Shown here: in pieces, positions 8,054-45,845 of the stretch
How positions within the stretch are numbered: the first letter of the stretch is position 1
Layout: each line of letters opens with the position of its first letter
DNA from: Ruminococcus sp.
GTDB taxonomy: Bacteria > Bacillota > Clostridia > Oscillospirales > Ruminococcaceae
NCBI GenBank assembly: GCA_017622925.1
Contig: JAGAQC010000006.1
Coordinates: 1-57,325 of the forward strand
Length of the DNA stretch: 57,325 nt
Reading direction: 5' to 3'
Made by a program: the position numbers and the translations under genes
The notes under the pieces: model-generated
Databases searched by the model: none
What the model was told of the DNA's origin: nothing
Seen by the model: only the letters and a program-made list of their open reading frames with translations

Positions 8054-8326
8054 ATTGCAATCAGAGCTTCTGCTCAGGGCAAGATTTTGACCACTCCTTG
8101 CGGAGTTAGTGCCATACGGACAGCCGGTCAAATGCCGATCTCCGAGTTTTTCGGACGGCAACTTCTGTTGCCTTATTGAAATTTTTTTATAAGTGACTCA
8201 GCTTGTGAAAGGTCAATAAGAGTGGTAAAAGAGGTATTTTTTGCTCAATATAGCTCTGAAGCCGTGAGGTTTAATAGCTGCTCTTAACACGTACAGGCTG
8301 AAAAATGTCTGTACGTTTTTATTTTT
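8054..8326 (+). ncRNA. Structured leader RNA ahead of the polyamine operon
   Basis: Nested long-range helices are visible: CAGAGCT (8062-8068) with AGCTCTG (8252-8258); GCAA (8079-8082) with TTGC (8241-8244); ACCACTC (8090-8096) with GAGTGGT (8220-8226); CTTATTG (8172-8178) with CAATAAG (8214-8220, sharing only base 8220). Local hairpins include CTCCTTGCGGAG, TCCGA/TCGGA and GGCAAC/GTTGCC. It ends in an intrinsic terminator touching the speD ribosome site. CAGCTTGT (8199-8206) could pair with ACAGGCTG (8293-8300) and break the terminator stem. This layout suits a riboswitch or attenuator for polyamine synthesis, or a separate small RNA. No known family recognised. Confidence 0.5.
8289..8326 (+). 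terminator. Terminator abutting the speD ribosome binding site
   Basis: ACGTACAG (8289-8296) and CTGTACGT (8309-8316) form an 8-bp stem with a 12-nt loop, followed by TTTTATTTTT. The speD Shine-Dalgarno GAGG begins at 8327, immediately after the T-run, so readthrough here sets speD operon expression unless another promoter exists. Confidence 0.8.
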
Positions 8327-8336
8327 GAGGTGCATT

Positions 8337-9119
8337 ATGGAAAATAAGCTAAAGCTTTACGGATTTAACAATTTAACAAAATCTCTGAGCTTCAATATAT
8401 ACGATGTCTGCTATGCGCGTATGCCCAAAGCTCAGCTGGACTATATCGCCTACGTTGACGAGGTGTACAATTCCGAGCGTATCACCGATATTATGACGCA
8501 TCTTACTGAGATGATAGGAGCGCAGGTACTTAGCGTTTCACGTCAGGATTACGATCCCCAAGGAGCGTCCGCAACGTTTCTTATTGCCGACGACACCATG
8601 ATACCCGCAGGCGGAAGCGAGACCGTGGCTCACCTTGATAAAAGCCACGTCACCGTACACACCTACCCCGAGTATCACCCCGACACGAATATTGCAACGT
8701 TTCGTGTTGACATAGACGTTGCGACCTGCGGAAAGATCACTCCTCTTACGGCTCTCGATTACCTTATCGGCAGCTTTGACAGCGACATTATAACAATGGA
8801 TTACCGCGTCAGAGGATTTACACGCAATCTCAGCGGCGAGAAAATTTTTATAGACCATGATATTACTTCTATACAAAATTACATTGACAAAGCAACACTT
8901 GACAAGTACGACGCCGTGGACGTAAACGTCTATCAGGCTAATATGTTCCACACAAAAATGCTTATTAAAGAGATCGAATTGCAGAATTACTTGTTCAACA
9001 CCGATGTGAGGGAGCTTTCTCCTCGCAGCAGGCTCGATATTACCAATTCCCTGAGAAGGGAAATGATAGAAATTTTCAGCGGAAGGAATGTGTTCGGAAA
9101 TGGCTCTTTCTCAGGTTAA
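8337..9119 (+). CDS. speD: S-adenosylmethionine decarboxylase proenzyme
   Basis: 260 aa from ATG 8337 with GAGG six bases upstream. E. coli-type (class 1A) AdoMet decarboxylase. The self-cleavage site is visible as [14 protein letters not shown]: cleavage between Lys102 and Ser103 makes the pyruvoyl cofactor from the serine. [10 protein letters not shown] and [10 protein letters not shown] are further family signatures. It makes decarboxylated AdoMet, the aminopropyl donor for SpeE, which lies two genes downstream. It overlaps the decarboxylase gene by 20 bp. Expression probably depends on the leader/terminator upstream. Confidence 0.93.
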
Positions 9120-10545
9120 CGCACCGATATACGAGGCTCTAAGGCGGTTCAGACGAATGAGGGTAGTTCCGTTCGACGTACCCGGTCATAAGCGCGGCAG
9201 GGGAAATATGGAGCTTACGGAGTTCCTCGGCGAGGACTGCATGAACGTTGACGTAAACTCAATGAAGCCGCTGGACAATCTCTGTCACCCCGTTTCCGTG
9301 ATAAAAGATGCGGAAATGCTTGCCGCCGAGGCGTTCAAAGCTGCAAACGCTTTCTTTATGGTCGGGGGAACTACTTCGGCGGTGCAGAGCATGATAATGT
9401 ACGCCTGCAAAAGCGGCGATAAAATAATCATGCCCCGAAACGTCCACAGAAGCGCAATAAACGCCCTTATCCTGACGGGAGCAGTACCTGTTTACGTCAA
9501 TCCCGAGGTAAACTCTCAGCTCGGCATAGCTCTCGGAATGTCGGTGGAACAGGTAGAAAGGGCTATCCGTGAGAATCCGCAGGCAAAGGCTGTTATGGTG
9601 AACAATCCCACATATTACGGCATATGCTCCGACCTGAAAAAAATAGTGGAGCTTGCCCATGAGCATAATATGCTCGTTCTTGTGGACGAGGCTCACGGTA
9701 CGCACTTTTACTTCGGCGATAATTTCCCAATATCCGCTATGGAGGCAGGGGCGGACATTTCCTCCGTCAGTATGCACAAATCGGGGGGAAGTCTTACGCA
9801 AAGCTCCTTCCTGCTTATGGGAAAAAATATCAATTCCGACTATATGCGGCAGGTGGTCAATCTCACGCAGACCACAAGCGCTTCGTATCTGCTTTTGTCA
9901 AGTCTCGATATATCGAGGAAAAGGCTTGCGCTCAGCGGTCGTGAGATATTTGCAAAGACCGTCGAAACGGCGGAATACGCGCGTTCCGAAATTAACGGCA
10001 TAGGCGGCTATTACGCCTATTCCAAAGAGCTGATAAACGGCGACAGCGTGTATGACTTTGACGTTTCAAAGCTCAGTATATATACTCTGCCTGTTGGTCT
10101 TGCAGGTATCGAGGTCTACGACCTGCTCCGTGACGAATACGATATTCAGATAGAGTTCGGGGACATCGGCAATATCCTTGCTTACCTTTCCGTAGGCGAC
10201 CGCGACCGTGACATCGAACGGCTCATCAGCGCATTGGCGGAGATAAAACGCCGTTTCGGAAAATCGGGGGCGGACATGCTCACTCAGGAGTACATTTCTC
10301 CCATAGTTGCCGAGCCGCCGAGAAAAGCTTTCTATTCCGATAAAATTTCCCTGCCCCTTGAAGAAAGCGCAGGCAGAGTATGCACCGAATTCGTTATGTG
10401 CTATCCCCCCGGAATACCTATCCTTGCTCCCGGCGAGCTTATAACAGAGGATATAATAAAGTATATAAAATATGCGAAAGAAAAAGGCTGTCAGATGACG
10501 GGTACTGAGGATATTAACATCGAAAGACTGAATGTTCTTGTGTGA
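9100..10545 (+). CDS. speA: Arginine decarboxylase (Orn/Lys/Arg decarboxylase, fold I)
   Basis: 481 aa from ATG 9100. PLP-dependent Orn/Lys/Arg decarboxylase of the short Bacillus SpeA type. Visible motifs: [10 protein letters not shown] near residue 27, DEAHGTH with Asp196 and His199, and [11 protein letters not shown] with the Schiff-base Lys227. The C-terminal domain ends about residue 480. Because agmatinase lies two genes later, arginine is the likely substrate, giving agmatine; lysine or ornithine cannot be excluded from sequence alone. Overlaps the end of speD, indicating a tightly coupled operon. Confidence 0.88.
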
Positions 10546-38888: not shown

Positions 38889-40128
38889 ATGGCAGTTAAG
38901 CGGATCAACGTGGAGCTTCCCGATTTAGTCGGTAAGGGATATAAAACGTTCTGGAACTTTAAAGGTCGTTACCGATAGTGCAGTCAAGGGTTCGAGGCGT
39001 TCAAAGAAGTCAAAGACAATGGCTTTATGGACGATCTACAACATGATGAAGTATGCAGGGTCAAATATGCTTGTCGTGCGTAAGACATACCGCACGCTGA
39101 AAGACAGCTGCTTTACGGAACTGAAATGGGCGATCAAAAGGCTGCACGTTGAACATCTATGGACGGTCAAGGAATCTCCCCTCGAAATGACGTATTTTCC
39201 AACGGGTCAGAAGATATATTTCAGAGGTCTTGACGATCCGCTGAAAATCACATCAATTGCAGTTGAAGTCGGCGCGCTGTGCTGGATGTGGATCGAAGAA
39301 GCCTACGAGATCGCTTCGGAAGATGATTTTGACACTCTTGCAGAATCAATGCTCGGCGATTGTCCGAAAGGACTGTTCAAGCAGATCACTCTTACTTTTA
39401 ATCCGTGGAATGAAAAGATATGGATAAAGAAACGATTTTTTGACGTTGACGACCCCGATGTACTGGCTCTCACGACAAATTATCTTTGCAATGAATGGCT
39501 GTCGGAAGCTGATAAAAAAGTTTTTGAACAAATGAAAGAGCGGAATCCGCGGCGTTACAACGTTGCAGGACTGGGGAACTGGGGCGTTGTTGAAGGCTTG
39601 GTATATGAGAACTGGAAGGAACAGAACTTCACGTTAAACGACATAAAGGACTGCAAGACAGCAGTAGGGCTTGACTTCGGCTATACCAACGACCCCAGCG
39701 CTCTTTTTGTCGGCTTTATAGATACGGGAAACAAGAAGCTGTACGTCTGGGACGAATTCTACGAAAAGGGATTGTCAAACCAAAAAATATACGAACTGGT
39801 TTGCAGAATGGGATATTCAAAAGAGCGTATTACAGCCGACTGCGCCGAACCAAAGTCTATAGCGCAGCTGAAAGGACTGGGACTGCGCATAGAGGGCGCA
39901 AAAAAAGGCGCGGACAGCGTAAACAACGGCATTCAATGGATCCAAGACCTCGAGATCGTCATACATCCCCGATGTGTGAACTTCCTCACAGAGATCGCCA
40001 ACTACACATGGGCTGTTGATAAATTCGGTAAAAAGTTAAACGTTCCGATCGACGACTTCAATCACCTTATGGACGCTATGAGATATGCGCTGGAAAAGTA
40101 TATCAGAAAGTCGGGATGGATATTTTAG
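38889..40128 (+). pseudogene. Terminase large subunit, TAG and frameshift near Walker A
   Basis: ATG 38889 begins AVKRINVELPDLVGKGYKTF and reaches KGRYR, then TAG at 38976-38978. The family continuation (VKGSRRSKKSKTMALWTIYN) is present but in the +1 frame from about 38982 to 40128. The rest is intact: CWMWIEEAYE (Walker B), GLDFGYTNDPSALFVG and DCAEPKS (nuclease). One to four extra bases explain it: mutation, sequencing error, or recoding at CGA-TAG. Without frame restoration only 369 residues from ATG 39019 are made, lacking the ATP-binding loop. Confidence 0.8.
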
Positions 40129-40139
40129 GCGGTGAAATA

Positions 40140-41606
40140 ATGCTAAAAACATCAGAAATAAAAAGGCTTATAGACGCCGACCTTATCAGCAGGCGAAAAA
40201 AATACGCTGCAATCGGTCAGCGATACTATGAAGCGGAGCATGACATAAAGGATTACAGGCTGTTTTACTATAATGCTGACGGCGACCTTGTGGAAGATAA
40301 ATGCAGAAGCAACGAAAGAATATCGCACCCGTTCTTCACGGAACAGGTCGATCAGCTGACGTCATATATACTTTCATGCTCCGAGAATCCTGTTCGGGCG
40401 ATCGAAACGGCAGAGGGACTTCAAGAACATCTTGACGCATATTTTGACGAAGAATTTTGGTCGGAATTCGGCGAACTTCTGACCGGCACGCAGATCAAAG
40501 GCTTTGATTATCTGTATGCTTATAAAAATGCACAGGACAGGACAGCTTTTGAATATGCTGACGGCATGGGCGTTGTTGAAGTCCGCGCGGAAGATACCGA
40601 TGATAAATGCGACTATTACATTTACTGGTACATAGACCGCATCGGGAAAAATAACACTCCCATTACACGTATACAAGTCCATAACGACAAGGAAATTTAT
40701 TATTACGTGCAGTCGGGCAGCGGCGAGATAAAGCTTGATAAAGAGAAAAAGTTCAATCCTCAGCCGAACGTTATCTACGTAGATACAAGGACCGGCGAAA
40801 AATTCGGCGCAAGTTTAGGATTCATGCCGTTTTTCAGACTTGACTACAACAGAAAACAGATAAGTCATCTTAAACCTATTAAGGCGTTGATAGATGATTA
40901 CGACCTTATGGAGTGCGGTCTTTCAAACAATCTTCAAGACCTGACCGAAGGAGTTTTTGTCGTTAAAGGATTTGCCGGTGACAACATGGACGAACTGCTT
41001 CAAAATCTCAAAACCAAAAAAGCGATAGGCGTTACAGAGGAAGGCGATGTTGATATCCGAACTGTCAATATCCCGTATGAAGCAAGAAAAACCAAAGCAG
41101 ATGAAGATGAAAAAAACATATACCGCTTTGGCATGGCTCTGAATTCACAAGGATTGAAGGACACTACGGCAACTACCAACATTGCAATAAAAATGGCATA
41201 CACGCTTCTTGACCTGAAAGCTGTAAAATTTGAAAAAAGAATCAAGAAATTCCTGCGGAAGATAATCAGGATAGTTCTTGACGAGATCAACAGCGTTAAC
41301 GGTACTGACTATCAGATGAAAGATGTCAGTATCGTTTTCAAGCATGAAATGCTGGTCAACGAGCAGGAAAACGTCCAGAACGATAAGACAAGGGCTGAAA
41401 CAAAGCAAATTGAGCTGAATAATGTGTTAAGCTCCGCACAGTTCATCGGCGATGAAGATACGTTAAAGGCGATATGCGATATTTTAGACCTTGATTTTGA
41501 TAAAATACGATCAAAAAAACAGGCTGAAACAGATATTGACACCGCTGCAAATATTCTTGACAGTTTATCGGTTGACCCTGCGGAAGGTGATATGATTGAA
41601 CAGTAA
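40140..41606 (+). CDS. Portal protein (SPP1 gp6-like)
   Basis: 488 aa from ATG 40140 after GGCGGTGAAATA. Portal motifs: AIGQRYYEAEHDI, HPFFTEQVDQLTSYILSCSE and KPIKALIDDYDLMECGLSNN, with the helical wing AMTL-type region near RFGMALNSQGLKDTTATTN. Forms the dodecameric DNA gate at one capsid vertex. It overlaps the MuF gene by 11 bp. Confidence 0.9.
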   Translation: MLKTSEIKRLIDADLISRRKKYAAIGQRYYEAEHDIKDYRLFYYNADGDLVEDKCRSNERISHPFFTEQVDQLTSYILSCSENPVRAIETAEGLQEHLDAYFDEEFWSEFGELLTGTQIKGFDYLYAYKNAQDRTAFEYADGMGVVEVRAEDTDDKCDYYIYWYIDRIGKNNTPITRIQVHNDKEIYYYVQSGSGEIKLDKEKKFNPQPNVIYVDTRTGEKFGASLGFMPFFRLDYNRKQISHLKPIKALIDDYDLMECGLSNNLQDLTEGVFVVKGFAGDNMDELLQNLKTKKAIGVTEEGDVDIRTVNIPYEARKTKADEDEKNIYRFGMALNSQGLKDTTATTNIAIKMAYTLLDLKAVKFEKRIKKFLRKIIRIVLDEINSVNGTDYQMKDVSIVFKHEMLVNEQENVQNDKTRAETKQIELNNVLSSAQFIGDEDTLKAICDILDLDFDKIRSKKQAETDIDTAANILDSLSVDPAEGDMIEQ

Positions 41607-43155
41607 TCAGAAGCAGGTACAGCAGCGCTTCCTTGATACCGAAAAGGAAGTGATGAAAAAGCTTGAAAACAGTTACGACCGATCGCTTAAAATGATCACC
41701 GACAGAATATCAAAGCTGCAATTTGACATCGGAAGACTTAAAGCGGAATACGACTGGCTGAACGACGATGACCCCGAAAAAGAAAAGGTAAGGTCGCAGA
41801 TACAGTCAAAGATATATCAGAAAGGCTTTCAGCAAGCCCTGCAAGGGCAGATAGACGATATTCTGAACAAACTGCACACACAGAATTACACCGCTGTTTC
41901 CGAGTATTTAAACGGCTGTTATGAGGACGGATATATCGGCGCAATGTACGACCTGCACGGACAGGGTATCCCGTTGATAATGCCGATAGACCAAAAGGCG
42001 GTAGTCCGCGCGGTACGGCTTGACAGTAAACTCAGCAAGCCGCTTTATACAAGGCTTGGCGAGGACATCGGTAAGTTAAAGCAGACTATTACTGCCGAAC
42101 TGTCCAGAGGTATTGCAACGGGTATGTCATACGGTCAGGTAGCGCAGCAAATAAAGCTGAAAATGACCGGCACATATAACACAAAGGGCGGCGCATACGG
42201 CAGAGCCTTGACCATTGCAAGGACAGAGGGACACAGAATACAAGTACAAGGCGGAATGGACGCCTGCAATGACGCCAAAAGCAAGGGAGCTGACGTTGTT
42301 AAGCAATGGGACAGCACCCTTGACGGTATTACACGACCTTCGCATCGGCTTGTTGACGGAGAGATCAGGGAGCTTGACGAAGCTTTTTCCAACGGACTGA
42401 TGTTCCCCGGAGACCCCTCCGGCAAGGCTGCCGAGGTAGTCAATTGTCGGTGCGCGCTGTTGCAGCGTGCAAGGTGGGCTCTTGATGAAGACGAACTGGA
42501 AGCACTGAAAGAACGAGCTGAGTTTTTCGGGTTGGATAAAACCGAAAACTTCGAGGACTTTAAGAAAAAATATCTCGTTTGTTCCGAAAGTCTTGACAAA
42601 TCCGCAAAAAGTGATATAATAGAATCAGAGGGGGATCGTAAAATGAATCTTATTATTGATAAATTTACGCCTTGTCTTGAAAATACCGAAACGGGAGAAC
42701 TCATGCCTACCGTCTATGAAAGAGCAAGCAGAAATGATCTGTTGCAGCTAAAGGGTTGGAATTTTAATTGGCTTGATAAGGAATTAGAATATACAGAAAT
42801 TTATAAGCTTTGTGTTGCAGGCGATAAAAAAATACAAGGGCTTGTAGCCGTTACTGATTTTAAGAGAGATATGGCTGTTTATGTTAATATTGCTGAAAGC
42901 GCGCCGCACAATTTGGGCAAAAACAAAAAATTCAACGGTGTAGGCGGACATCTTTTTGCAATTGCCGCTAAAATATCTCTTGAAAAGGGATATGGTGGAT
43001 TTCTGTTTATGGATGCTAAAAATACCGATCTTGTCAAGCATTACAGTAAAACGCTTAATGCAGTATTATTGGGACGACCTCACCCGTACAGAATGTTCAT
43101 AGATGAAGAAAACGCTATGAAACTTCTTGATACTTATACTTTTGAGGAGGGCTGA
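41596..43155 (+). CDS. MuF minor head protein fused to a GNAT-fold domain
   Basis: 519 aa, TTG or ATG start region at 41596. Residues 1-345 are an SPP1 gp7/Mu F head protein: KPLYTRLGEDIGKLKQTITA, ALTIARTEGHRIQVQGGMDA and GVTRPSHRL-like DGITRPSHRLVDGE, then VVNCRCALLQ. Residues 350-519 are a separate domain with GNAT features (KKFNGVGGHLFAIAAKISLE as the acetyl-CoA loop and helix, GYGGFLFMDAKNTDLVKHYS). MuF proteins with C-terminal toxins and a following immunity gene are a known class (MuF polymorphic toxins). Here the second domain also has its own promoter, ribosome site and ATG (42643). Confidence 0.8.
   Translation: MNSNQKQVQQRFLDTEKEVMKKLENSYDRSLKMITDRISKLQFDIGRLKAEYDWLNDDDPEKEKVRSQIQSKIYQKGFQQALQGQIDDILNKLHTQNYTAVSEYLNGCYEDGYIGAMYDLHGQGIPLIMPIDQKAVVRAVRLDSKLSKPLYTRLGEDIGKLKQTITAELSRGIATGMSYGQVAQQIKLKMTGTYNTKGGAYGRALTIARTEGHRIQVQGGMDACNDAKSKGADVVKQWDSTLDGITRPSHRLVDGEIRELDEAFSNGLMFPGDPSGKAAEVVNCRCALLQRARWALDEDELEALKERAEFFGLDKTENFEDFKKKYLVCSESLDKSAKSDIIESEGDRKMNLIIDKFTPCLENTETGELMPTVYERASRNDLLQLKGWNFNWLDKELEYTEIYKLCVAGDKKIQGLVAVTDFKRDMAVYVNIAESAPHNLGKNKKFNGVGGHLFAIAAKISLEKGYGGFLFMDAKNTDLVKHYSKTLNAVLLGRPHPYRMFIDEENAMKLLDTYTFEEG
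42593..42645 (+). promoter_or_regulatory. Internal promoter, SD and ATG for the GNAT domain
   Basis: Inside the MuF gene: TTGACA (42593-42598), 16-bp spacer, TATAAT (42615-42620), then GAGGGGG (42628-42634) and an in-frame ATG at 42643. A free 170-aa GNAT protein could be made from it. In the fusion this DNA is translated as the linker DKSAKSDIIESEGDRK. Confidence 0.75.
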
Positions 43156-43157
43156 TC

Positions 43158-43349
43158 ATGTCACGTGAAGATATAAAAAAAATGAAAGAACTTGATGAAG
43201 CTGCTGAAAAAGCAGGAGGTTTTACCTCTCCTGTTTCTGCTGACGATATTCATTACAATTATCGTGAAATAAGCCGATATTGTAAAGAGAAAGGAATTGA
43301 ACCCATTGATATGACAATTCGCGAACTTAACAGGTTTGTTGTAGAATAA
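43158..43349 (+). CDS. Putative immunity/antitoxin partner of the GNAT domain
   Basis: 63 aa, ATG two bases after the GNAT stop, with GGAGGG. Motif NYREISRYCKEKGIEPIDMT followed by IRELNRF is a short helical pattern. Position directly after a MuF fusion, small size and shared transcription fit an immunity or antitoxin role; no biochemical family recognised. Confidence 0.5.
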   Translation: MSREDIKKMKELDEAAEKAGGFTSPVSADDIHYNYREISRYCKEKGIEPIDMTIRELNRFVVE

Positions 43350-43360
43350 AACGAATGTAA

Positions 43361-43390
43361 TTGAAATTTACAAAATAAATATGATATAAT
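43361..43390 (+). promoter_or_regulatory. Promoter of a phage small RNA
   Basis: TTGAAA (43361-43366) and TATAAT (43385-43390), 18-bp spacer; start near 43397. Confidence 0.65.
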
Positions 43391-43396
43391 AAAGGT

Positions 43397-43551
43397 AAGA
43401 TAAGAGAGGAGCGTCAGAGGTGGAAGATTTCGTCCCCGTCCACACGCCGCCGGCTTGACAAGGTTTATACCTGAGAGATGCAGGAGAATGGGACGCCTGC
43501 CTGATATCCACTCTTTCTATAACCGCTTTGGGAAACCAAGGCGGTTTCTTT
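43397..43551 (+). ncRNA. Small RNA in the phage head module, family unknown
   Basis: About 155 nt from a promoter to a terminator (AACCGCTTT 43521-43529 / AAGGCGGTT 43538-43546, T-rich tail). Local hairpins GCAGG/CCTGC and GGTGG/CCGTCC are visible and the two ends (AGAGAGGAG and CTCTTTCT) can pair. No start codon with a usable ribosome site gives a sensible peptide. It lies between the GNAT partner gene and a fibre gene. Could regulate the island, act as antitoxin RNA, or be a leader of the fibre gene. Confidence 0.5.
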
Positions 43552-43571
43552 ATACTCAAAAAAACGAATTT

Positions 43572-43595
43572 AAACGCTCCAAAAGGGCGTTTTTA
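43572..43595 (+). terminator. Second tandem terminator
   Basis: AAACGCTC/GGGCGTTT with a 5-base loop and TTTTT. Together with the preceding hairpin it strongly separates the small RNA from the fibre gene. Confidence 0.7.
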
Positions 43596-43649
43596 TTATG
43601 CCTGAAAATACAATAAAAACGGCATAGAAGCCGGAAAGGAAAGGTAAAA

Positions 43650-45845
43650 ATGACAACGATAGAATTAACGGCGAAAGATCAGGAGATCGCAGCGAGATCA
43701 AAGCCTGTCGTTGCATCGGGGAATCAGAATACAGTCGCAATAACGGTCGATTACAGTCCCGAGTGGGACGGTTATGTTAAAACAGCCGTATTCTTTACGG
43801 AAAACGACCCGACAGCGTATGAAGTCGCTATGGTGGACGACAAGTTTATCGTTCCTCACGAAGTGCTTGAAGATGTTACGAAGCTCTATATCGGTCTGAG
43901 GGGCGTGAACGGCGATGAAGTAAAGACGTCCTCGCTTGTAAAGTACAGCATTGTAAAGGGAACTCCGATCGGCGAGGGTACAGCGGTAGACGCAACGCCT
44001 ACGCCGTATCAGCAGGTGCTTTCCAGAACCGAAAGCTTGCAGGGGCAGATCAATGAGATCGTTATCGAAGCGACCGATAGCGGCGACGCTTCGGCGGAAG
44101 TCGCACAGGCAAGGATACCCGAATACGGAGCGGAGACTTTTCCAACGCTTCAAGCAAGGCTTAACAGCTCCGACGCACAGCTTAATGCAGTACAGATAGG
44201 AAAAGCGGATCGGGAAGAACTTGAAAAGCTGACTGTCAGCGAAATGCCGTTTGTCAGCGGATATATTCCAAATCGCTGTGAAACAGGCACTATTGATGTA
44301 ACGACCGGCATAGATACAGATGACGAAACAAGAATAAGAACGATAGGGTATATCCCGAATATCGGTTCTCGCATTGTTGTTACACTTTCGGCAGACGTGA
44401 AATGCCGCGCAGTTTACTATAAGTCCGATCTTACCGTTCTCAGAGCTTCGCCGGATTGGTCAACTCATGATGTTATTAAGATAAAGATTCAGGACGATAC
44501 AGAGATAGCATACGTTCGGCTTGTCTTTGCTTTCAGCGATGACAGAAAAATAGAAAATGTTTCCGATATAGAAAGCCTGATAACAGTAAGATACGACAAT
44601 CACCCTTATACATACAACGGACGTGTTGCAGACCACGGCAGAACAAGCTTTGCCGAGTGCAGCAAGCCGGGCTGTTACGGTTTCAGCAGTACCGATCTTC
44701 CTATTCTGACCGATAAGCCCGATATTTCGGACGGCGGAATACTCAGGGTCGAAATAAACGCCGCTGCGGACGTAGTGTTCCAGACGATATGTACCAAGAA
44801 AGGCTTTATATACTTCCGATACGGCAGCAATGAATTTACAAGAATGAACGCTCTGTATACTCAGTATTTCCTTGCGAGGGGAAACGCTGTCGATCTCGGC
44901 TACAGCTCACTTGCGGAATGTACAACCGAGGGAACATATCAGATCACTTCGGCAAATATTTCGGAGCTTTCGGACTGCCCGAGTAAATACGGCGGCATAC
45001 TTAAAGTGTACAGAGGTTTTTCCGCCGTTGTGCTTTTGCAGGAATACACCGATACACGAGGAAATACGTATCAAAGATACATGAACGCCACTGAATTCAG
45101 CCAATGGATACAGACGGGGAAAAATATTACAACTACGGCAGGATCAGCGGTATGGTACGCATTGGGGGACAGCATAACTCAGGGATATTACAGCTATATT
45201 GGCGATAATGGCAAATCTGCTATAGCGGTAACTCAAAATAACTGGGTCAATACAGTAGCTAATGCTAAGGGATATACACTTACAAATCATGGTGTAGGCG
45301 GCTCGGGATATGTTCATAACGGAACTGTCCTTGATAAACTGAATGCGAGAGATCATGTGAACACTATCGACTTTTCGGGAGCGGACATTGTAACCCTTGC
45401 TTACGGTATCAACGACTGGAAAGGCAACGACCCTTTGGGAACATTCAATGATGACATTGCTACGGGCGGCACATTCTACAGTAACATGAGATATGTTATA
45501 GAAAAGATACTTGGCGATAATCCTCTGTGCAAGATATTCATTATAACCCCTATTAACGCTTCGAGATACGGAACAGAGGTCGGTAACTGGTCGCTTAGTT
45601 TCCCGAGAGGCGCTGATATGAACGGCGATAGAACAGAGGCTGACGATAAGCTCACGCTCCAAGACTTCTTCAATGCCGAAAAGGAAGTTGCTGAATATTA
45701 CGGTCTGGAACTGATAGATATGACCCACGATTCATGCGTCAACAGGCTCACCGCGCCTCACATTCTTATCGACGGCGTTCACCCGTCGCTCGACGGTCAT
45801 AAGGCAATGGGCAGGGAGCTTGCCGATAAGATAAATTACTTTTAA
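43650..45845 (+). CDS. Tail-fibre/BppU-like protein with SGNH hydrolase domain
   Basis: 731 aa, ATG after GGAAAGGAAAGG. The N-terminal 110 residues (ELTAKDQEIAARSKPVVASG, VDYSPEWDGYVKTAVFFTEN) are the BppU/upper-baseplate type. Middle regions are beta-rich fibre. The C-terminal 230 residues form an SGNH/GDSL hydrolase: YALGDSITQG (Ser nucleophile), TLAYGINDWKG and DGVHPSLDGH (Asp-His pair), so it may deacetylate or cleave cell-surface glycans. Its place between head genes, rather than after Tal, is unusual. Confidence 0.8.
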   Translation: MTTIELTAKDQEIAARSKPVVASGNQNTVAITVDYSPEWDGYVKTAVFFTENDPTAYEVAMVDDKFIVPHEVLEDVTKLYIGLRGVNGDEVKTSSLVKYSIVKGTPIGEGTAVDATPTPYQQVLSRTESLQGQINEIVIEATDSGDASAEVAQARIPEYGAETFPTLQARLNSSDAQLNAVQIGKADREELEKLTVSEMPFVSGYIPNRCETGTIDVTTGIDTDDETRIRTIGYIPNIGSRIVVTLSADVKCRAVYYKSDLTVLRASPDWSTHDVIKIKIQDDTEIAYVRLVFAFSDDRKIENVSDIESLITVRYDNHPYTYNGRVADHGRTSFAECSKPGCYGFSSTDLPILTDKPDISDGGILRVEINAAADVVFQTICTKKGFIYFRYGSNEFTRMNALYTQYFLARGNAVDLGYSSLAECTTEGTYQITSANISELSDCPSKYGGILKVYRGFSAVVLLQEYTDTRGNTYQRYMNATEFSQWIQTGKNITTTAGSAVWYALGDSITQGYYSYIGDNGKSAIAVTQNNWVNTVANAKGYTLTNHGVGGSGYVHNGTVLDKLNARDHVNTIDFSGADIVTLAYGINDWKGNDPLGTFNDDIATGGTFYSNMRYVIEKILGDNPLCKIFIITPINASRYGTEVGNWSLSFPRGADMNGDRTEADDKLTLQDFFNAEKEVAEYYGLELIDMTHDSCVNRLTAPHILIDGVHPSLDGHKAMGRELADKINYF

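Follow-up and report, generated by a model that had tools for sequence, protein, structure and literature searches.

A GNAT-fold domain predicted at the end of a prophage MuF head protein, behind a promoter-like hinge that recurs in further head-toxin fusions of phages

The stretch of DNA analysed here as a whole, hereafter the window, covers positions 1 to 57,325 (in nucleotides, nt) of a Ruminococcus sp. contig (JAGAQC010000006.1); our subject is a phage head gene that it carries, together with the small gene behind it. On the forward strand a single open reading frame (ORF) of 519 residues with a TTG start (41596..43155) encodes at residues 163-288 a Phage_Mu_F domain (42082..42459; Pfam PF04233, E 3.6e-16, with matches to head and packaging PHROGs), while its residues 1-336 match the head family phrog_595 (E 3.9e-42). 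The frame continues without a stop into a C-terminal part of exactly 170 residues (42643..43155), which has its own in-frame ATG at 42643, i.e. residue 350, and a predicted GNAT fold. At the joint of both parts the coding DNA reads as a promoter: a -35 hexamer TTGACA (42593..42598), a spacer of 16 nt and a -10 hexamer TATAAT (42615..42620) with the TG of an extended -10 one base ahead, then a Shine-Dalgarno-like GAGGGGG (42628..42634) placed 8 nt ahead of the internal ATG. We call hinge the 44 nt at 42582..42625 that hold both hexamers, each of them conserved at the joint of other fusions. The fusion stop ends at 43155 and, after a gap of two bases, a 63-residue partner gene (43158..43349, forward strand) follows, the proposed immunity protein or antitoxin. 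A preliminary description, made from the letters of the window, had already read the head protein as running into a 170-residue domain and had placed the promoter, ribosome binding and start signals in the joint; the open frame and all these coordinates are confirmed. The joint site is the only 12/12 promoter match in 40500-44500, and six such sites occur across both strands of the 57-kb window.

The last 170 residues were modelled as a GNAT fold with a predicted local distance difference test score (pLDDT) of 90.8, and the best Foldseek match of this predicted domain is TacT3, the toxin of a toxin-antitoxin (TA) system. Neither Pfam nor NCBIfam gave a GNAT model or another family for the domain, nor a GNAT model for 88 relatives; searches of PHROGs and PADLOC with the domain and the partner gave nothing usable, and profiles of both found no credible match among the sequences of the PDB. 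The GNAT-like identity that had been proposed from the sequence is thus borne out by structure prediction and fold search and finds no echo in the family databases: it rests on the predicted fold. If the model is a guide to activity, acylation of aminoacyl-tRNA in the style of TacT/AtaT might be the likeliest one, which the fold suggests weakly.

Relatives of the domain were collected by a viral alignment-based scan (46 loci) and by a second alignment-based scan of one genome per species over 84,980 species (361 relatives, 80 kept); with the window locus and four annotated records they make a tally of 131 loci, part of L004-L018 entering no count. The N-terminal extension reaches at least 200 residues in 46 of them, 40-199 in 11 and less in 74. 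One of the 46, L154, was rejected as a fusion because its upstream frame runs, by eye, through a tRNA-like stretch, which leaves 45 true long fusions. In all of these but one the N-terminal part is a recognisable head or portal protein; the exception, L094, is counted as fused and matches no recognised head family. Pfam run on 49 extended proteins named Phage_Mu_F in 18, Phage_min_cap2 in 15, VG15 in three and Phage_portal in one, and sequence clusters agree. In L048 and L053 the GNAT domain is joined straight to a portal protein. A MuF fusion of the Fusobacterium phage phiPaco has a 58-residue partner; the annotation calls the one just a minor head protein and the other a hypothetical protein.

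The promoter of the joint is kept in these fusions as DNA. In the non-redundant fused loci (34, or 33 as L154 was dropped before these statistics), promoter scores of the 99 nt ahead of the PCL motif were compared with those from synonymous reshuffling of their own codons: p was below 0.05 at 16 of the 33, with a combined P of 8e-14 which is to be taken as a guide, the fused loci being related and not independent. A score of at least 10/12 is reached in 25/33 joints against 1/271 equal tiles of the head parts and 6/132 tiles of the domains, and at least 11/12 in 15/33 joints against 0/271 and 1/132 respectively. The first isoleucine codon of the joint motif [GDS]II is ATA in 18 cases out of 18, and elsewhere ATA makes 257 of 884 isoleucine codons. 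The -35 sequence is retained across two codon phases with a spacer of 16 or 17 nt. Besides, 14 of the 28 fused loci with a -10 hexamer also present a Shine-Dalgarno sequence and an in-frame start 25-28 nt behind it, where shuffles gave a mean of 6.9 and none of 500 was as high. The site is likewise found where the extension is shorter than 200 residues: 46/82 such loci hold a site of at least 10/12 in the 110 nt ahead of the domain. In the fused copies promoter, Shine-Dalgarno sequence and start are kept more strictly than the peptide calls for, and two modes of expression would need this.

With a model built from 61 partners and tested on the loci offering 250 nt behind the domain gene, a partner-like ORF was detected at 121 of 129 loci, and at 61 of the 69 which lay outside the model, the linkage of domain and partner thus holding across relatives. 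The C-terminal half of the partner contains a Y, an E and an F that are nearly invariant. No credible family was found for it in Pfam, NCBIfam or PHROGs with the window partner, or in Pfam with the 61 partners; no match to the DUF1778 or DUF4065 antitoxins, with which known GNAT toxins pair according to the consulted parts of PMC9177977, appeared for any of them (Pfam, E 0.01), the upstream neighbour of the domain being the head part.

The domain is also found free of any head protein. Free-standing domain genes with a small gene behind are carried by Paenibacillus and Treponema plasmids, where the small gene has no similarity to the window's partner, and a satellite phage holds a relative of the domain as a 70-residue open frame, again with a small gene behind. 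Directly upstream of seven loci tallied as stand-alone lies a match to a head protein; these seven resemble fusions that were broken or truncated. A rapidly built tree of the domain, with 88 sequences, requires about 11 switches between the fused and the stand-alone state (10 without six unclear rows), four of them forced by well-supported branches; movement, in whichever direction, was therefore repeated. The closest kin of the window domain are two stand-alone genes, L078 (76%) and L079 (72%). Ahead of the former, at about 1150-1313, lies a short peptide which by eye resembles a MuF2 head tail and stops at the -10, and the genes upstream look chromosomal by eye (HU-like, S4-like); L078 may be a cassette that has come out of a head gene. 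The domain matched 13/394 genomes of an order-level sample (single-protein query, some matches weak) and 6/391 of a class-level sample (profile query), the window's genome included in both.

The hinge is met well beyond the GNAT domain. Among 33 relatives of the window MuF protein gathered by protein similarity, 27 have an extension of more than 100 residues, and 10 of these 27 have a 10/12 site near the MuF end (in L165 the site is 122 nt off), with synonymous p of 0.005 to 0.09, except 0.54 for L171, the sole GNAT fusion among them. None of the five relatives with an extension of at most 12 residues reaches 10/12, and in L187, whose extension counts 59 residues, a 10/12 site is present (synonymous p 0.27). 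That the window's MuF family always carries the promoter was considered and rejected on these 10/27. In a MuF2 set, also found by protein, a site of 11/12 stands near the joint in six of 15 members, the synonymous p being at most 0.01 in every case, and the hinge peptides diverge (e.g. LDKSGKSDII versus LTETTKNVTI; L345 and L347 read LT, the others LD).

Two DNA-pattern scans of viral contigs gave at least 116 sites, at least 49 of them embedded, which here means that the reading frame stays open over 150 codons ahead of the site and 40 behind it. The following counts of embedded sites concern the matches listed. Forty-eight of the 49 come after a protein similar to the head or portal proteins of the GNAT fusions—18 MuF1, 20 MuF2, 7 portal and 3 VG15-like by best match—or 45 of 46 once the three contigs used to build the pattern are left aside; 40 of the 49 are distinct, and one cargo only is the GNAT domain. 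The portal-like proteins that precede seven of these sites are closest to the L048/L053 type and bear other cargos. A control pattern with equal hexamers and a different spacer end gave 11 sites, none embedded. The sole embedded hinge-like promoter not preceded by a known head protein, L259, lies in a frame of more than 2,100 codons. Pfam was run on 29 hinge cargos, a part of the full set (21 taken from the pattern scan and the other 8 from protein scans, with some near-duplication): Ntox50 and ADPrib_exo_Tox were named three times each, Tox-MPTase4 and ATLF (weakly) twice each, and PBECR2, PBECR3, Gln_amidase and ART once each. All the named cargos of these 29 belong to toxin-type families and the remaining ones have no Pfam name. 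Nine of the 40 distinct sites have a Shine-Dalgarno sequence with an in-frame start at most 45 nt after the -10, the distance being exactly 25 nt in six, and out-of-frame starts with such a sequence occur at 10 of the 40, over two frames; for other cargos the start signal is therefore at most a minority feature. On the evidence of sequence, the hinge is common to head fusions of several head families and cargos and is not specific to GNAT. The joint promoter is more than chance: it recurs where the GNAT domain is fused to other proteins, and again between heads and cargos of a different kind.

Two mosaics show where the parts meet. The viral contig L003 has the window's domain (98%) and partner behind a VG15-like head protein (a weak match, just under the curated score), the similarity to the window beginning at the hinge. 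Contig L223, with a MuF2 head and a non-GNAT cargo, shares with the window the 44 identical nt of the hinge, 11 before TTGACA and 33 from TTGACA on, and in ungapped comparison the flanks are dissimilar on both sides; the MuF survey (PMC5576092, consulted in part) describes MuF1 and MuF2 as distant relatives within a single superfamily. The hinge is therefore the place of a new joining of head and cargo. These comparisons support the view that cassettes are swapped between head genes at this joint.

The surroundings of the fusion are those of a prophage: integrase, repressor, small and large terminase, portal, scaffold, major head protein and tape measure are present, the portal gene lying directly upstream of the fusion ORF (40116..41606, forward strand; phrog_64, E 2.5e-83). 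In the interval that separates the partner gene from the ORF after it (43361-43590) we observe a second strong promoter-like site, TTGAAA-18-TATAAT, followed by a stretch resembling the skipping-rope RNA RF02924 (36.2 bits for a gathering score of 36.7, E 4e-7) and by terminator-like hairpins; at gathering score Rfam gave no match at the fusion locus. Further on in the head module, a 731-residue ORF (43650-45845) has a C-terminal end like a tail fibre or esterase, SGNH-type by eye. Far from the fusion, the window contains a 6S RNA (225-411) and an SpF59 (ldcC) RNA (8088-8138), the latter upstream of an ORF (9088-10545) that is decarboxylase-like by eye.

The fusion shares with MuF polymorphic toxins an N-terminal MuF domain, variable C-terminal domains on one head protein, a small ORF directly downstream and the packaging genes of a prophage around it. 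We read it, with a probability of roughly 60%, as such a toxin with a new GNAT-fold domain, an immunity-type partner, and a hinge encoding a promoter that would serve both for expression in the lysogen and for the exchange of cassettes. During lytic growth the late promoter would produce the full fusion; the head part would carry it into the capsid and the domain would enter the next cell with the DNA. In the lysogen, whose late genes are silent, the promoter of the linker, of which the signals are conserved, would start a short mRNA, and in the window copy the Shine-Dalgarno sequence and ATG would yield the free 170-residue GNAT protein plus the partner. The resident cell would thereby be immune, the pair acting as a toxin-antitoxin unit; in the fused relatives devoid of Shine-Dalgarno sequence and start, the hinge promoter might serve the immunity gene alone. 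Two earlier proposals are changed by this. That a free-standing gene was joined to the head gene agrees with the existence of free-standing cassettes, but the promoter is no left-over of one joining, since the hinge occurs in several head families and with several cargos. The two modes of expression keep the support of a promoter, a Shine-Dalgarno sequence and a start conserved as DNA, but dual expression as such has precedents in secretion-system and Rhs toxins.

Several observations weigh against this reading. The second Foldseek rank is held by nourseothricin acetyltransferase, an antibiotic enzyme, and ordinary GNATs lie within one Z unit of TacT3 (PA4794, 12.2); with such a tie the fold gives therefore neither substrate nor toxicity. 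No toxin-family match was obtained for the domain and 88 relatives in Pfam and NCBIfam, and the predicted model of the partner found no structural match in the fold search. To the relatedness of the fused loci mentioned above is added that a 10/12 site is missing in eight of the 33 (L049, L057, L061, L064, L065, L074, L075 and L076), in 17 of the 27 MuF relatives with long extension and, at the level of 11/12, in 9 of the 15 MuF2 proteins. The other 14 of the 28 fused loci with a -10 have no Shine-Dalgarno sequence plus start, so that the free domain is no general product. Finally a similar partner was not found at 8 of 129 loci (L020, L021, L022, L046, L056, L076, L077 and L116), three of them plasmid or phage records, out of four such records in the analysis; another short ORF occupies the place in all of them, L076 excepted.

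Instead of a toxin with its antidote, the GNAT pair could be an enzyme of benefit to the lysogen or of counter-defence, which would acetylate a small molecule or some protein of the host or phage and have the partner for a helper or adaptor. The stand-alone copies on plasmids and, as a short frame, on the satellite phage would suit it, as would fold matches that include nourseothricin/streptothricin acetyltransferases and RimI-type enzymes, and GNATs are contained in phage polyvalent proteins, as indicated by passages of PMC5512222. Against it, known toxin domains occupy the same joint behind the same hinge, the downstream partner is tightly linked, and the best fold match is a TA toxin; we consider it rather unlikely. 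The joint could also be just a patch of homology that serves to exchange toxin cassettes and is maintained through recombination, its action as a promoter playing no part. Both mosaics speak for it, the exact 44 nt between dissimilar flanks and the 98% cassette shared from the hinge onward with another head type. Homology alone, however, need not yield a sigma-70 consensus with a spacing of 16-17 nt, nor a spacer that varies where the hexamers do not, and half of the fused loci also keep a Shine-Dalgarno sequence and a start, so that this explanation appears very improbable. Scarcely credible is a conserved peptide linker (e.g. a protease site or hinge, 'DKSxxSGII') with promoter likeness as a by-product: a similar peptide does occur at many loci, and the -10 has a single codon phase in all 49 embedded sites listed, though one of the three phases gives a stop, but the codon choice goes beyond the demand of the peptide, the -35 is retained in two codon phases (LT in L345 and L347 versus LD), the spacer length shifts while the hexamers stay, and the site stands ahead of the domain even where the extension is short.

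The finding is real and larger than first described: a MuF member with a predicted GNAT fold, and a promoter-encoding hinge which further head-toxin fusions of phages also have. We might go further than the toxin reading of the window and see there one instance, with a new GNAT toxin, of a system of mobile toxin cassettes spread in many phages. The translated promoter at the left end of the cassette would keep immunity, and with some cassettes the free toxin, switched on in lysogens, and its constant DNA would allow crossover into MuF1, MuF2, VG15-like or portal proteins; for this extension we hold the balance to be even. How a lysogen stays immune to, or makes use of, a toxin encoded in a silent late head gene is an unsettled question for MuF toxins, which a promoter in the linker would answer. 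The hinge also hints at the way in which head proteins exchange their toxin ends. As DNA it is a signature by which overlooked toxins and immunity genes of phages could be found, 48 of the 49 embedded matches listed coming after head or portal proteins. As a class of virion-borne toxin the GNAT domain would be new, and so would its partner as an immunity family.

A literature search, with subscription papers and preprints largely outside its coverage, turned up no earlier description of a MuF-GNAT fusion or of a promoter within the linker of a MuF protein. The terms promoter, transcri*, linker and acetyltransferase have no occurrence in the main text of the MuF survey (PMC5576092), and in the passages of PMC12226406 and PMC11699363 found by term, promoter refers only to expression plasmids. 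The nearest known systems, compared here through the parts of the sources available, are the MuF polymorphic toxins of temperate phages themselves (PMC5576092; Apk2, PMC12226406; Bxa, PMC11699363), alike in the MuF head domain, the C-terminal cargo, the adjoining small downstream ORF and the packaging module; the present one differs by a GNAT-fold domain outside the Pfam and NCBIfam families and by a joint that encodes a promoter. Among phages and conjugative elements, polyvalent proteins (PMC5512222) likewise place GNATs in virion-associated or transferred proteins, but their two GNAT families are RimI-like and set in other architectures, the passages concerned naming no MuF-GNAT fusion. The GNAT TA systems TacAT, AtaRT, KacAT and GmvAT (PMC9177977) share the fold and the small partner gene; by contrast, the partner gene of the window comes after the domain and has no match among antitoxin families, and the domain is fused to a head protein. 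Rhs toxins made from internal promoters as type II TA modules (PMC7043789) also have a C-terminal toxin and its immunity made in the cell apart from the delivery part, though with another delivery system, other toxin domains and, in the passages concerned, no shared hinge named. Equally close in regulation is the type VI secretion system (PMC3857813), where a promoter within the toxin ORF keeps immunity on while delivery is off; here the vehicle is a phage head and not a secretion system, and the promoter sits at the joint of the domains, common to different toxins.
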